Positions 1-7,163 of a DNA stretch of 37,674 bases are shown in pieces. The stretch comes from Candidatus Omnitrophota bacterium (lineage in GTDB: Bacteria > Omnitrophota > Gorgyraeia > Pluralincolimonadales > Pluralincolimonadaceae): positions 1-37,674 of the forward strand of contig JAUYOH010000047.1 of the NCBI GenBank assembly GCA_030695925.1. The letters run 5' to 3'. Below the pieces are notes generated by a model that was given only the letters and a program-made list of their open reading frames with translations, was not told where the DNA came from and did not search any database. A program made the position numbers and the translations under genes. Every line of letters begins with the position of its first letter. Position 1 is the stretch's first letter.

Positions 1-1
1 T

Positions 2-448
2 CTGGGTTTTATTTTTAGGAACACCAATAACGAGGTCAAAAAAACAGAACTGGTCATATTCCTGACGCCGACGATAATCAGCGGAGATTTCATTGAGCCC
101 ATCCCCGGAATGAAGAGCAGCTCCACTTATCTTGAATATTATGACGGCGCCAGAGACAATGTTTTAAATAATGCGCTATATTATCAGGATGTAAGAGGAA
201 AGATATTGACCGCGGCGATGAAATATGCCTCCGAGTCGCAGAGCAAGATAACCGGCGAGGCGATAGTCTCGTTTTCTCTCGCCTCGGACGGTTCGCTTAC
301 CGGCGACCCGTCGCTGGTAAATGAGGTCCAGCCGGAATTGGCAGAAGTGGCGCTGCGAAGCGTGAAGGGCTCGGCGCCTTTTCCGCCCTTCCCGAAACTT
401 TTGCGCAGAGATACGGAGAATTTTAAGATCAGGATATCTTTTGAATAA
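2..448 (+). CDS. Secretin C-terminal end fused to a TonB C-terminal-like domain (5' partial)
   Basis: The reading frame is open from the first bases, so the start lies outside the window. The first 25 or so residues (LGFIFRNTNNEVKKTELVIF, then LTPTIISGD) match the end of the secretin domain, where a charged stretch leads into a hydrophobic strand and a TP motif. Secretins form the gated outer-membrane pore of type II secretion, type IV pili and related machines. After a linker, the last 75 or so residues look like a TonB C-terminal domain: a GEAIVSFSLASDGSL strand, a helix with ALRSV, then PFPPFP and a closing FKIRISF strand. TonB-C normally sits in the periplasm and contacts outer-membrane or pilotin-type partners. 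Secretins usually end soon after the TP motif or with a short S-domain, so this tail is unusual. The secretin call is fairly sure, the TonB-C call good, and the system it belongs to unknown. Confidence 0.75.
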   Translation: MGFIFRNTNNEVKKTELVIFLTPTIISGDFIEPIPGMKSSSTYLEYYDGARDNVLNNALYYQDVRGKILTAAMKYASESQSKITGEAIVSFSLASDGSLTGDPSLVNEVQPELAEVALRSVKGSAPFPPFPKLLRRDTENFKIRISFE

Positions 449-567: not shown

Positions 568-3500
568 TTGCATTTTAAGAGCCTTGAGCTTTTCGGATTT
601 AAGTCGTTCGCCAACAAGACCGAGTTAAATTTCGAACCCGGTGTCACCGCTATAGTCGGGCCCAACGGCTGCGGCAAATCCAATATCTCCGACGCGATAA
701 AATGGGTCCTCGGAGAGACCTCGGCCAGAGAAATCCGCGGCCTGCGGATGGAAGACGTCATATTCAGCGGCACCGACGGCAAAGAAGCGCTCGGCTTCGC
801 AGAAGTATCCCTCACGATAGTAAACCAGCCAAAGATCCTGCCCACGGAATACGATGAAGTCACGATCACCAGAAGGGTCTTCCGTTCCAGCGAGAGTGAA
901 TATTTCATAAACAAAGTCCCTGTCCGCTTAAAGGACATCGCCGAACTTTTAATGGGCACAGGTATCGGCACCTCCACTTATTCTTTGATGGAACAGGGAA
1001 GGATAGACCAGTTATTGGATTCCCGTCCCGAGGAAAGGCGTTTTGTCTTTGAAGAGGCAGCCGGTATCACCAGATATAAATCCAAGAAAAAAGAGGCCCT
1101 AAGGAAATTAGAGCAGACAGAGGCCAACCTCTTGAGGGTCAATGACGTTATCACCGAAGTCAAGCGCCAGATAAACTCCATAGAGCGGCAGGCAAACAAG
1201 GCGAGAAGATACAAAGAGGACTTTGACAAATTGAAGGAATTCGAGGTCCTTTCCGCCGCGCACGAATTTAGGAAGATCGGACAGGAAGAAGGCAGTGTCT
1301 CATCGGACAAAGATTCTCTCGCGGCAAAAGAGAGCGAGCTGTTTTCTATGATCAACGACCTCGATTCAAAGATGGCCTCTTTACGCGAAGATCTGGCAGG
1401 AGTCGATCAGCGGTTATCCGACGCGAAGGCGAACGTCGTCGATATCGACGGCCAGATAGAAAGGAACAAGGACAAGGCATCATATAATTATGAAAGAGTA
1501 TCCGAACTTAACGCCCGGATAGCCAATTTAGAGAAAGATATAAACGCCAATAGGGCGCGGCTTTCTAATTTAGAAAACGAGGTGTCGCGTCTGAATTCCG
1601 AAGCCAACTCATTTACGGCCAACGAAGAGAATAAAAAAATAGAAATAGAAGAGAAGAGCGTATATCTCGATGCTATAGCCGAAGCCGTCAAGACTTGCCA
1701 ATCGAATATCGAAAAAGCGAAAGCATATGTGGTCGATGTAGCGCAGGGGCAGACACGGACTCATAACGAACTTACGAAGTTGGTCGCAAATACTCAGCAT
1801 TTAAGCGCGCGCCAGAGAAGGATAGAGGTAGAGAAGCGCAAGGTCGAAGAGGAAAGAGCCGCTTCCGGGCAAAAACTGCAGGAATTATCCGCCTTCGTGG
1901 AGAATATATCCAAGGATATCGAAGGATTGAATTGGAAGAAGGCGCAGGCGGAAGGTGATTTAAACACTCTTGGCGAAGAGCTGTCTAATTCGGAGACGCG
2001 GCTGCAGACTTTAAACAGCGAATTGACCGCGGAACAATCGAGGCTTGTATTCCTGGAGGACTTAAAGTCGAGATACGAGGGGTTTTCCTTAGGAGTCAAA
2101 TCCATCCTGAAGGAAGTAGAGAAAGGTTCTCCCGTCTCCGAGGGAATAATAGGGGTGTTGGCCGATCTTATAGAGCCGTTTCAGGGCTATGACAGCGCCG
2201 TTGAGGCCGCTTTAGGCGATTCGGCGCAGGCGATCATCGTGAAGGATAAGGAGACCTCTAAGAAGTTGATAAGATTCCTTGATGAACATTCTTTGGGGCG
2301 CGCGACATTTGTTCCGCTGGAAGGGCTGGGAGGGATAGAGGTAAAGACCGACCTCTTGAATTATATTAAGGCCGGTGAAAATATAAGGCCCGCGCTGTCA
2401 TACCTATTAAACGATGTTTATCTGGCGGAAGACCTGGAATCGGCATTTAACGGCATATCGGGAAAAGCCGCGGGAGTAAGACTGGTCACGAAGAACGGCG
2501 AGGTCGTCGAGAAGAGCCTATTCACCGGAGGTAGGATACCGCGGGATGAGGGCTTCGGACTTATCGGAAGGGACGCGAAGATAAAAGAACTGAAGGTAGA
2601 TACGGAAAGCCTTGAGGCAAAGATCGAAGTCCTTGATAAAGAGATTCACGAAAAGAAGCAACATAGGGACAGCCTGCAGGCTGCCACCAAAACGATAGCG
2701 GAGGATATACACAGGATACAGATCGAGCATGCCAATAAGATAAGTGAAAAGTCGGGCATCGAGGAAGCCGTCGGTAAATTGAACGAGGAGGAGTCACTTC
2801 TTAATCTGGAATTCGACGAGGTAAAGTCCGAGATAGGCATACTTGTAGTGAAGGAAGAGGAATTAAAAAAGGAACTCTCCCAATTAAATTACGAAGACGC
2901 GAAGGTTCAGGAGACCATAAAAGGCAATCAGGATACCATCTCCCTTAAGTTAAAAGAGAGGGAGGATACCCTTGTCCTGATAACGCAGCTGAAGACAAGT
3001 CTCGACTTACTCAAGGATAAAGAGACCTCGGTCCTGAATGCCTTAAATATGATGGCGCGTTCGCTGGACGATGAGAAGACCAGTCTCGGCTCCAAGGAAA
3101 GCGAGATAGAGCAGTCAAAGGCCAAGATATCGGAGCTCCGGATCGAATCCGAGCAACTTACCAAGAACAATGAGACGCTGCTCGCCGGCAGGTCGACAGC
3201 GCAGGAAGATTCCCTTAAAATTTTAGAGGAAAGAAAGGTATCGGCGGATTCGATAACGAAACAGGAATTCGAAGTCAGGGATGTTCAAAAGCGGCTTGAG
3301 GAGATAAGGGGTCAGGTACATACTCTTAACGTGAAGACGACGGAATTTAATTATAAGAAGAGCGGTTTACGCGACAGGTTAGTGCAAGTTTATAAGATAG
3401 AATTAGATTTGGAGCAGGTTACGATACCTGAGGATACGAATTGGGAGGAGACAAACGGTAAGATAGGAGTTTTGAGGTCGAAACTTGACCAGATGGGTCC

Positions 3501-4122
3501 TGTCAATCTCGTCGCCATAGAGGAACATCAGGAATTGCAGGAGAGGTATACTTTCCTTACGACACAGCAGCAGGACCTGTTGCTTGCCAAGGATGATCTA
3601 CATAAGGCGATCAACAAGATCAATAGGACCACAAGAGAACTCTTCCTCGAGACCTTCGAGAAGATACAGGTCGAGTTCAGGAATATGTTCAGGATGCTCT
3701 TCGGCGGCGGCGACGCGGAACTGATGCTTATCGACCAATCGGACATATTAGAGAGCGGCATAGAGATAATTGCGAGGCCTCCGGGCAAGAAGCCACAGTC
3801 TATCTCGCTTTTATCCGGCGGCGAGCGTTCGATGACGGCGATATCGCTCCTCTTCGCTATATTCAAGGTAAAGCCGAGCCCGTTCTGCGTCTTAGATGAG
3901 ATGGACGCGGCATTAGACGAGTCAAATATCGACAGATTCTGCAAGGTCTTAAGAGATTTCGTTAAGACATCACAGTTTATTATGATCACCCATAACAAGA
4001 AGACGATTTCGGTTGCGGACGTCATGTACGGGATCACTATGGAGGAGTCCGGTGTATCGAAGATCGTTTCGGTTAAATTTTCAGATGAGGTGGAGGCGAA
4101 GACCGTAAATGCGACACATTAA
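568..4122 (+). CDS. smc: Chromosome segregation protein SMC
   Basis: The 1184-residue length is typical of bacterial SMC, the ATPase that forms a ring with ScpA/ScpB and organises and separates chromosomes in the nucleoid. The N-terminal head has Walker A GPNGCGKSN at about residues 31-39. Two long charged coiled coils (about 170-500 and 680-1000) flank a hinge at about 520-650 (GIIGVLADLIEP to FTGGRIPR). The C-terminal head has the signature LLSGGERSM near 1081 and Walker B CVLDEMDAAL near 1107. The start is TTG at 568, chosen because GGGAGG lies 8 nt upstream and the protein then begins MHFKSLELFGFKSF, the normal SMC N-terminus. It has its own promoter and a leader that may mask the ribosome binding site. 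scpA and scpB are not nearby. Confidence 0.97.
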   Translation: MHFKSLELFGFKSFANKTELNFEPGVTAIVGPNGCGKSNISDAIKWVLGETSAREIRGLRMEDVIFSGTDGKEALGFAEVSLTIVNQPKILPTEYDEVTITRRVFRSSESEYFINKVPVRLKDIAELLMGTGIGTSTYSLMEQGRIDQLLDSRPEERRFVFEEAAGITRYKSKKKEALRKLEQTEANLLRVNDVITEVKRQINSIERQANKARRYKEDFDKLKEFEVLSAAHEFRKIGQEEGSVSSDKDSLAAKESELFSMINDLDSKMASLREDLAGVDQRLSDAKANVVDIDGQIERNKDKASYNYERVSELNARIANLEKDINANRARLSNLENEVSRLNSEANSFTANEENKKIEIEEKSVYLDAIAEAVKTCQSNIEKAKAYVVDVAQGQTRTHNELTKLVANTQHLSARQRRIEVEKRKVEEERAASGQKLQELSAFVENISKDIEGLNWKKAQAEGDLNTLGEELSNSETRLQTLNSELTAEQSRLVFLEDLKSRYEGFSLGVKSILKEVEKGSPVSEGIIGVLADLIEPFQGYDSAVEAALGDSAQAIIVKDKETSKKLIRFLDEHSLGRATFVPLEGLGGIEVKTDLLNYIKAGENIRPALSYLLNDVYLAEDLESAFNGISGKAAGVRLVTKNGEVVEKSLFTGGRIPRDEGFGLIGRDAKIKELKVDTESLEAKIEVLDKEIHEKKQHRDSLQAATKTIAEDIHRIQIEHANKISEKSGIEEAVGKLNEEESLLNLEFDEVKSEIGILVVKEEELKKELSQLNYEDAKVQETIKGNQDTISLKLKEREDTLVLITQLKTSLDLLKDKETSVLNALNMMARSLDDEKTSLGSKESEIEQSKAKISELRIESEQLTKNNETLLAGRSTAQEDSLKILEERKVSADSITKQEFEVRDVQKRLEEIRGQVHTLNVKTTEFNYKKSGLRDRLVQVYKIELDLEQVTIPEDTNWEETNGKIGVLRSKLDQMGPVNLVAIEEHQELQERYTFLTTQQQDLLLAKDDLHKAINKINRTTRELFLETFEKIQVEFRNMFRMLFGGGDAELMLIDQSDILESGIEIIARPPGKKPQSISLLSGGERSMTAISLLFAIFKVKPSPFCVLDEMDAALDESNIDRFCKVLRDFVKTSQFIMITHNKKTISVADVMYGITMEESGVSKIVSVKFSDEVEAKTVNATH

Positions 4123-5526: not shown

Positions 5527-6669
5527 ATGAGTCGAGTAACTATAAAATCTGAGATGTTGAGCTGGGCTTGTGAGAGGTCTGGCCAGAGCGCGGAGAACAT
5601 GCGCAAGAGATTTCCAAAGTTTGATCTTTGGAATCTTGGAGAGGCGAGTCCTACACTTAAACAACTGGAACGCTTTGCTAAGGCTACATATACACCTATC
5701 GGATTTTTATTCCTTCAAAAGCCACCCATTGAGACTGTCCCGATTCCGGATTTTCGTAATGTTGGTGGCGGGCATGTCGGGCATCCAAGTCCGGATTTGC
5801 TTGATACCATTTACATTTGCCAGCAGCGACAAGAATGGTATCGCGAGTTTGTACGATCCACTGGCGAAAAACCTCTTCCATTTGTAGGTTCCGTTAGCCA
5901 AACAAATAGTATTGAGAAAATTGCAGAAAGTATTCGACATGCACTTGGATTTGACATCGAAGAACGTCGTCAAACGCCAACGTGGACTGACGCATTGCGC
6001 CGCTTCATTGAACAGGCGGATGTGCTTGGGATTTTAATCATGGTGAGTGGCGTTGTCGGAAACAATAATCGGCGTAAACTCGATCCGCAAGAGTTTCGGG
6101 GTTTTGCTTTGGTGGATAACCTCGCACCGCTTGTGTTTATTAATGGTTCTGATACTAAAGCAGCTCAGATGTTTACCCTTGCTCATGAGTTGACTCATAT
6201 TTGGATTGGGCAATCTGCTGTTTCTGATGCACAGGCAGTGCAGATACCTGAAAATCAAATTGAGCGTTGGTGCAATTTGGTTGCTGCAGAACTTCTCGTG
6301 CCTCTTTCCGCATTACGCAGCGAATATAAGAAAAATAATAAATTGACTGATGAAATTAACCGTCTCGCCCGGTGTTTTAAGGTTAGTACGCTAGTAGTCT
6401 TACGCCGAATTCACGATGCGGGTGGACTTACAAAAGAACAATTCTGGAAAGCTTATCATGAAGAACTGGAAAGGTTAGGAAATCTTCCTTCGGGAAGCGG
6501 CGGCAATTTCTATCTAACGCAGGCAGCACGTGTCAGCAAACGTTTTGCCCGGGCGCTTGTTGCCAGTACGCTTGAGGGGCAGACTCTGCATCGCGATGCA
6601 TTTCGTATGCTTGGATTTTCAAAGCTTGAGACCTTCAAAGATCTTGGACGAAGTTTGGGGATAGCCTGA
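5527..6669 (+). CDS. ImmA/IrrE-family metallopeptidase with N-terminal HTH-like region (antitoxin-like partner)
   Basis: This 380-residue protein belongs to the long ImmA/IrrE class (COG2856 type). The N-terminus (about 1-65) resembles an XRE-like helical region (WACERSGQSAENMRKRFPKF, then PTLKQLERFAKATYTPIGFL). The zinc-peptidase core carries HELTH at residues 220-224 (AHELTHIWIG) and a downstream Glu near 255 in CNLVAAELLVP, the usual ligand set. Known relatives cleave repressors or act as the regulatory half of toxin-antitoxin-like pairs. The TGA stop overlaps the ATG of the PIN gene by one base, so the two are translationally coupled. A 17-bp palindrome lies upstream. The sequence is AT-richer than the flanking core genes, which fits acquisition by transfer. 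Confidence 0.85.
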   Translation: MSRVTIKSEMLSWACERSGQSAENMRKRFPKFDLWNLGEASPTLKQLERFAKATYTPIGFLFLQKPPIETVPIPDFRNVGGGHVGHPSPDLLDTIYICQQRQEWYREFVRSTGEKPLPFVGSVSQTNSIEKIAESIRHALGFDIEERRQTPTWTDALRRFIEQADVLGILIMVSGVVGNNNRRKLDPQEFRGFALVDNLAPLVFINGSDTKAAQMFTLAHELTHIWIGQSAVSDAQAVQIPENQIERWCNLVAAELLVPLSALRSEYKKNNKLTDEINRLARCFKVSTLVVLRRIHDAGGLTKEQFWKAYHEELERLGNLPSGSGGNFYLTQAARVSKRFARALVASTLEGQTLHRDAFRMLGFSKLETFKDLGRSLGIA

Positions 6670-7163
6670 TGGCATATTTACTCGATGCTAATGTTTTCAT
6701 ACAGGCGAAAAACCTTCACTATGGTCTTGATTTTTGTCCGGCGTTCTGGGAGTGGCTAATAGCGAATAATACGGCTAAACTAGTCTTTAGTATCGAAAAG
6801 GTTGGCGATGAAATTAATGCTGGTGCGGATGAACTTGCTGTTTGGGCGACACAGCGCGGAGCAGATTTTTTTCTTAAGCCGGATGTTACGATATTACCTG
6901 CACTTAGCTCAGTTAGCACTTGGGCAGCGAGTCAAAGTTACGAACCCGTTGCTGTAAATACATTCCTCCAGGTTGCTGATTACTACTTGGTAGCTCATGC
7001 TCTTGCCCATGGACATACAGTTGTAACACATGAAAAAATGTATAGTTCAATGAAGAAGATAGGTATTCCTAACGCGTGTATCAGCCTCAAAATTAAGTTT
7101 ATGACGCCGTATGAAATGCTTCGCCATGAGCGGGCACGTTTTGTCCTTGGTTCCCGAGGTTAG
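6669..7163 (+). CDS. PIN-domain ribonuclease-like protein (DUF4411 type), putative toxin
   Basis: This is a 164-residue protein with a PIN-like fold: an N-terminal strand with the first acidic residue at Asp6 (AYLLDANVFIQA), acidic residues around 43-48 (EKVGDE), and ADYYLVAHALAHGHTVVTHE at about 103-122 giving Asp104 as a further metal ligand. PIN domains are Mg-dependent RNases and the commonest toxin class. The DUF4411 subgroup is repeatedly found directly after ImmA/IrrE genes, as here. The gene starts inside the stop of its partner. The toxin assignment comes from family and context; the RNA target is unknown. Confidence 0.8.
   Translation: MAYLLDANVFIQAKNLHYGLDFCPAFWEWLIANNTAKLVFSIEKVGDEINAGADELAVWATQRGADFFLKPDVTILPALSSVSTWAASQSYEPVAVNTFLQVADYYLVAHALAHGHTVVTHEKMYSSMKKIGIPNACISLKIKFMTPYEMLRHERARFVLGSRG

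Follow-up and report, generated by a model that had tools for sequence, protein, structure and literature searches.

The first positions of the window (2-448), by which we mean the whole 37,674-nucleotide stretch of Omnitrophota DNA under study, hold the 3' end of a GspD-like secretin gene, which continues in the same frame into a TonB C-terminal domain (TonB-C). The tail is almost certainly a C-terminal domain of the TonB/TolA type, carried on the end of an Omnitrophota T2SS secretin. This fusion is not a single oddity but is widespread in the phylum.

The gene part is one open frame of 148 residues, which enters from the contig edge and is closed by a stop codon at positions 446-448. The motifs that an earlier note had named as a secretin end and a TonB-C pattern were all located in this frame: the secretin end motif TELVIFLTPTIISG occupied residues 15-28 and was followed by SFSLASDGSL (90-99), ALRSV (117-121), PFPPFP (126-131) and FKIRISF (141-147). 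As the same note had pointed out, the window contains only the tail of the gene, the 5' part being off the contig (Table 1).

Table 1. Features of the tailed secretin gene and its downstream neighbour in the window
Feature	Position	Strand	Basis
Secretin domain, last 26 residues	2..79	+	PF00263 profile positions 143-168 of 169
Short linker, residues 27-40	80..121	+	low pLDDT, about 53-57
Long helix into the TonB-C domain, residues 41-78	122..235	+	AlphaFold model
TonB C-terminal domain, residues 80-148	239..445	+	PF03544 match, TonB/TolA-C fold
SMC protein gene directly downstream	568..4122	+	Pfam

When the window protein was compared with profile models, Pfam TonB_C (PF03544) matched the C-terminal domain of Table 1 with an E value of 8.4e-6 and 26.6 bits, which passed the cut-off of 24.6. 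The NCBIfam TonB family model TIGR01352 gave 21.7 bits on the tail, under its cut-off of 27.1, so that one of the two TonB models was passed. The Pfam Secretin model (PF00263) gave 23.5 bits over residues 1-26, under its cut-off of 27.5, just the last 26 positions of the domain being there. The tail is preceded by a secretin domain, and it is without the N-terminal membrane anchor of its own and the long proline-rich spacer that TonB has.

Prediction of the structure, which the earlier note had proposed as a check, gave a TonB/TolA-C fold for the tail with AlphaFold, Foldseek and VIA-align. The AlphaFold model, built from the window protein with 45 relatives, had a pLDDT of about 97 from residue 61 onwards (82.6 overall) and, after the long helix, showed a strand (85-94), a second helix (111-124) and a second strand (138-147). 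The top Foldseek match of this model was the H. pylori TonB-CTD (6sly, E 3.3e-4). With VIA-align, the highest Z was obtained for TolA domain III (1lr0, Z 10.5, rmsd 3.6, 110 aligned), followed by 6sly (Z 9.6, rmsd 2.2, 84 aligned); the TolA rows ranged from 6.1 to 10.5, the E. coli TonB entries were lower, at about 6, and the best row outside the TonB/TolA family reached 4.7. In contrast to this likeness in structure, the window protein had no match among TolA families (Pfam at E up to 1, NCBIfam up to 0.01). The predicted fold lends no support to the tail as an S-domain or a beta-lip element.

Furthermore, a profile of 45 fusions searched against solved chains matched GspD over, for example, positions 121-487 and H. 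pylori TonB over 527-602; among the 32 matches listed, the best stretch of each chain lay within one half or the other. A full-length model of the relative L045 contained secretin elements, then a long helix, then TonB-C elements, and its Foldseek matches were secretins. Since the pTM of this model was 0.45, the position of the tail relative to the barrel was left out as evidence. Confusion with STN (PF07660, 'Secretin and TonB N terminus'), present in 37 of the 45 tailed secretins, was also considered and rejected, as STN is N-terminal and separate from the tail.

Within its assembly, which has 168 contigs and a size of 1.70 Mb, the window is contig C21. Contig C168 of the same assembly holds a near-copy of the gene, with 92% identity over 448 nt and the first 93 nt identical to the window. 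The near-copy lies at L003:1-580, against window 1-448. It carries an in-frame TAG at codon 43, between secretin and tail, where the window has TAT. Downstream of the gene, C168 is unrelated to the window, a 52-codon frame standing in place of the SMC gene. With the TAG codon omitted, dN/dS between the tails of the two copies was 0.13-0.15, a ratio by which the tail shows the signature of purifying selection.

The earlier note had recommended an extension upstream. The upstream part has its counterpart on C168, where the full secretin, also found upstream of the tail in relatives, stands at the end of a cluster in the order two pseudopilin-like genes, gspK, gspL, gspM, a MerR-like gene, an ExeA-like ATPase gene, gspC and gspD. 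For the window gene itself, we infer from synteny that it continues into this T2SS cluster. In the near-copy the secretin domain (PF00263) scored 168.2 bits against a cut-off of 27.5, and Pfam gave N0, secretin N-type and secretin domains, with some of the N0 and STN matches below cut-off. The near-copy gave 263.4 of the 351.35 bits required by the NCBIfam GspD equivalog TIGR02517, and 273.5 of 284.35 bits with the NCBIfam PilQ model; as the GspD cut-off was missed, 'GspD-like' is the safe name. Pfam also recognised T2SSC, T2SSK, PilM/PilN, PilO-type and N_methyl genes on C168, the gspJ-like gene by N_methyl only and the gspI-like gene lying outside the Pfam scan. The AAA-type ATPase gene, for which we assume the name ExeA, encodes a protein of 271 aa with ATPase-type (AAA) Pfam families only.

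The other end of C168 overlaps the edge of contig C8 at 97%, where Pfam recognised gspE, gspF and gspG and the genes after them are H- and I-like by position. C8 probably comes first, followed by the cluster and then C21, and C168 would be the version from a second, close strain, in keeping with the stated contamination of 7.42%. The locus resembles GspD-type systems in its domains and in its cluster (GspC, K, L and M on C168; E, F and G on the adjoining contig), and differs from them in the TonB-C domain that stands where they have a short S-domain and in the missed GspD cut-off. In two relatives of the same family, L045 and L046, gspD is followed by an SMC gene, like the window gene; none was seen downstream of gspD on the fetched stretches of L047 and L048, of the same family.

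Five genomes of the window's own family have an unbroken frame of 602-612 aa comprising secretin and tail. The window protein matched in 47 of 59 related genomes, many of these matches being stand-alone TonBs or secretin ends only. A scan of the genome_contigs collection gave 258 stretches with the pattern; these yielded 114 relatives, and the analysis covered the best 80. In this set, searched for other secretins with a TonB-C tail as the earlier note had suggested, the tail profile found a tail at 46 of the 80 secretin loci and none at 34, some of the 34 loci being incomplete and most tailed rows having built the profile, so that they match by construction. Independently, Pfam TonB_C was found at E 0.01 or better in 33 of 45 tailed proteins (12 were without such a match) and in 0 of 29 tail-less ones; the 45 leave out L059, which contains an N run, and the 29 leave out five incomplete proteins.

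The tailed loci are titled Omnitrophota or Omnitrophica except for L051 (Planctomycetales), L064 (bacterium), L093 (uncultured bacterium) and L068 (Candidatus Saelkia), the last of which the tree tool assigned to Omnitrophota. Of 237 phylum genomes sampled evenly, 186 had a tail-like match, and among the 150 matches listed at least 45 genomes had one in an open frame of 450-810 aa, these being scored by frame length only and not by secretin domain. One of these long-frame matches (G182) contains an internal stop. Tail-like TonB-C matches were also seen in open frames of 1055 and 2681 aa, on contigs C62 and C5 of genome G024.

An assembly artefact or a frameshift joining a secretin gene to a TonB gene has a negligible probability. 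It could be suspected from a contig that begins inside the gene and from the near-copy with its stop between the two parts, but intact fusions occur in many independent genomes, with both parts in one unbroken frame, and this candidate was ruled out. The frameshift that the earlier note had named as a possible refutation was therefore not found, and its central claim, a secretin C-terminus with a TonB-C fold, is supported by the predicted fold together with the unbroken frames in relatives.

The tailed secretins usually lie within a T2SS-like gene cluster. Among the 46 tailed loci, a GspC relative was present in 41, ExeA-like in 33, MerR-like in 30, GspM in 25, GspL in 22 and GspK in 13, as counted on the fetched stretches only, which vary in reach. 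The gene 3' of the secretin varies by lineage: the largest downstream family occurs in 15 of 42 tailed loci (as first gene in 13, as second in 2), and no downstream partner gene is shared across most of the 42. Members of this largest family (e.g. L063, L078, L089 and L090) have a hydrophobic N-terminus, and by eye their C-terminal part resembles PDZ/GspC.

Secretin rings have about 13-15 subunits and lie mostly within the periplasm. Strand addition is the way in which TonB pairs with TonB boxes and TolA with TolB. In terms of this analogy, and in line with the earlier note's idea of a docked partner, the reading that we tentatively favour, and to which we give a little less than an even chance, is that the tail would act as a passive strand-addition dock at the pilotin end of the secretin. 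The TonB-C domains would form a ring at the secretin end where pilotins bind elsewhere, and a partner in the outer membrane or the periplasm could lend a short extended peptide to the sheet as an extra strand. Such docking may serve the targeting of the secretin to the outer membrane, its assembly or its retention there. The dock would be passive: coupling to ExbB-ExbD calls for a membrane anchor, and the tail lacks one of its own.

In the literature, T2SS secretins are described with a C-terminal S-domain bound by pilotins, and a pilotin-dependent secretin is defined by an S-domain helix with an Ala-Phe motif and by a partner lipoprotein (PMC6532946, in passages). Sections of PMC6532946 and PMC10499894 place the pilotin site at the C-terminal end in T2SS and Tad secretins and report ring sizes of 15, 13 and 14; in the latter source, pilotins differ between systems in architecture and binding mode. 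TolA-III and TonB are stated in part of PMC7391070 to take extended peptides by strand addition.

In favour of the dock stand the TonB_C match and predicted fold of the tail, its frequency at T2SS-like loci, the purifying selection on it and a TonB_C tail on a second, Tad-type secretin family. Several observations speak against the dock. No partner was found; no downstream family is common to most of the 42 tailed loci; 34 of the 80 loci analysed (best 80 of 114; some incomplete) have no tail match; and in the C168 copy a stop codon precedes the tail, as G182 has an internal one. In addition, the ExeA-like ATPase gene in the cluster makes a pilotin-free assembly by a GspA/B-like route possible. 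In Aeromonas, as related in passages of PMC6532946, ExeD relies on an inner-membrane complex instead of a pilotin, and its assembly is reduced when the S-domain is replaced or removed, though no pilotin is known.

This last result would also fit a structural clamp without any outside partner, in which the tail would replace the S-domain, pack on the neighbouring subunit and stabilise the ring. The tail does stand in the place of the S-domain of other GspD proteins, and the window linker is short (36 residues from the LTP motif to the conserved Tyr, 14% P/K/E). However, we consider the clamp unlikely: the same distance spans 35-164 residues across 46 aligned tails, so that linkers of other lineages are loose for a fixed clamp, the tail-less secretins of the phylum mostly end 8-51 residues past the TP motif, so that no clamp of such size is needed in them, and a TonB-C domain on two secretin types would be an odd choice for a plain clamp.

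Anchoring of the secretin to the cell wall, through binding of peptidoglycan by the tail, appears very unlikely, since the literature consulted shows no peptidoglycan binding by this fold and relatives of the fold are described in part of PMC7391070 as peptide binders. It would be in keeping with the binding of peptidoglycan reported for other T2SS parts such as GspB and ExeA (PMC9239104) and with the ExeA-like protein found here, in which ATPase-type Pfam families were the only ones.

Besides the tailed secretins, the phylum contains stand-alone TonBs that are about 200-280 aa long and have the same PFPPFP-type core. The window genome has one stand-alone TonB next to a TonB-dependent receptor (Pfam) and to BtuC/D/F-like genes (by eye). 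The tails share with these TonBs the conserved Tyr, Gly, Phe and Pro positions, and with the TonB C-terminal domain in general the PF03544 match and the same predicted fold; they differ in not being on a membrane-anchored protein of their own. A tree of 76 domains, built on 92 columns and weak at many inner forks, separated 46 of 48 T2SS tails from 25 TonBs and 3 Tad-type tails with support 97/83, the two exceptions, L074 and L114, both being long rows. Pro103 is present in 47 of the 48 tails and in none of the 25 TonBs. Just ahead of the second helix, 46 of the 48 tails lack two residues that are present in the TonBs. From the tree split, Pro103 and the two-residue gap, most tails appear to be old and specialised relatives of the TonB of the phylum and not recent copies of it.

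These fixed differences suggest a different ligand, and for this reason it is quite unlikely that the tail holds uptake receptors next to the secretion pore by binding the TonB boxes of TonB-dependent receptors. That possibility draws on the stand-alone TonBs, which carry the most similar domain found and of which 17 of 25 have a receptor match nearby, within fetched stretches several of which were short or cut, and on a Myxococcus receptor described in part of PMC6434023 as needed for protein secretion. In genome G102 (L155:6436-9712), a tailed secretin, a corrinoid adenosyltransferase and a stand-alone TonB adjoin.

On a tree of the secretins themselves (78 rows, three short ones omitted), eight gains or losses of the tail were needed, four of them forced by supported branches, and the tail-less rows L085 and L088 were nested within tailed groups. 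Losses or repeated gains of the tail have therefore taken place, and it is dispensable at least in some lineages, which also speaks against the dock.

A second fusion was observed in the phylum. The loci L039, L041, L043 and L190 encode Tad/pilus-type secretins (PF13629 and PF00263) that end in TonB_C, with E values of 1e-14 to 1e-16. A junction-plus-tail profile made from three Tad fusions matched in 74 of 228 phylum genomes (E 1e-25), the window genome not being among them. In 59 of the 74 the match began at position 1-4, so that the secretin end was included, and 73 of the 74 frames were 522-774 aa long; the four loci named are those in which Pfam verified the Tad-type secretin domain. These proteins share with the T2SS fusion a TonB_C at the secretin C-terminus, and differ from it in the secretin type (PF13629 at the N-terminus) and in a stronger TonB_C match; the Tad tail is the more canonical of the two. 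On the domain tree the three Tad tails fell on the TonB side, apart from the T2SS tails. As they do not group with the latter, the Tad tail is likely a separate gain, the support of the fork being limited.

A canonical TonB_C at the same end of Tad secretins suggests that the domain's role has to do with the C-terminal end of the secretin. It is conceivable, though doubtful, that Omnitrophota have twice wired Ton docking into secretins (T2SS and Tad), a TonB-C ring at the pore either replacing pilotins as a built-in part or directly linking protein secretion or pili to TonB-box proteins of the outer membrane. The targeting or holding of secretins at the outer membrane is solved differently between systems, and two TonB-C-tailed secretin types suggest another solution, as well as a possible physical link of secretion pores with TonB-box proteins. 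The tail, predicted to be a short, well-folded domain in uncultured bacteria, is open to testing. According to part of PMC10066038, most Omnitrophota are ultra-small, and some show traits of predators or parasites.

Outside the phylum, limited samples of three groups were searched at the thresholds used here. With the T2SS junction-plus-tail profile, no fusion was seen in the group of an Elusimicrobia record (198 genomes), where five genomes matched at E 1e-12 over the first 36-76 of 178 positions only, that is, over the secretin end, with the tail domain absent. The sample reached via the 'Elusimicrobia' record L102 repeats Omnitrophota rows and hence is no outside comparison. In nine genomes of the group reached via a Nitrospirota record there was no fusion, three tail-profile matches lying in frames of 191-215 aa, and in the group of a Desulfuromonadales record (297 genomes), searched with the Tad profile only, 16 genomes matched, with no fusion among the matches listed, all of which lie in frames of 210-320 aa. 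No relatives were found among viral contigs, and plasmids gave weak tail matches only, in five rhizobial records, one of them annotated TonB.

Among the open-licence papers found on secretins with TonB, or on Omnitrophota secretins or type II secretion, none describes such a fusion. The Wzi-like protein mentioned in part of PMC12419801 is similar in having a TonB-C on a secreted outer-membrane protein, but it is not a secretin.

Elsewhere in the window, adjoining genes at 5527-7163 encode an IrrE-type peptidase domain (PF06114) and DUF4411 (PF14367, weakly PIN). Taken as a pair, which we infer, they look toxin-antitoxin-like.
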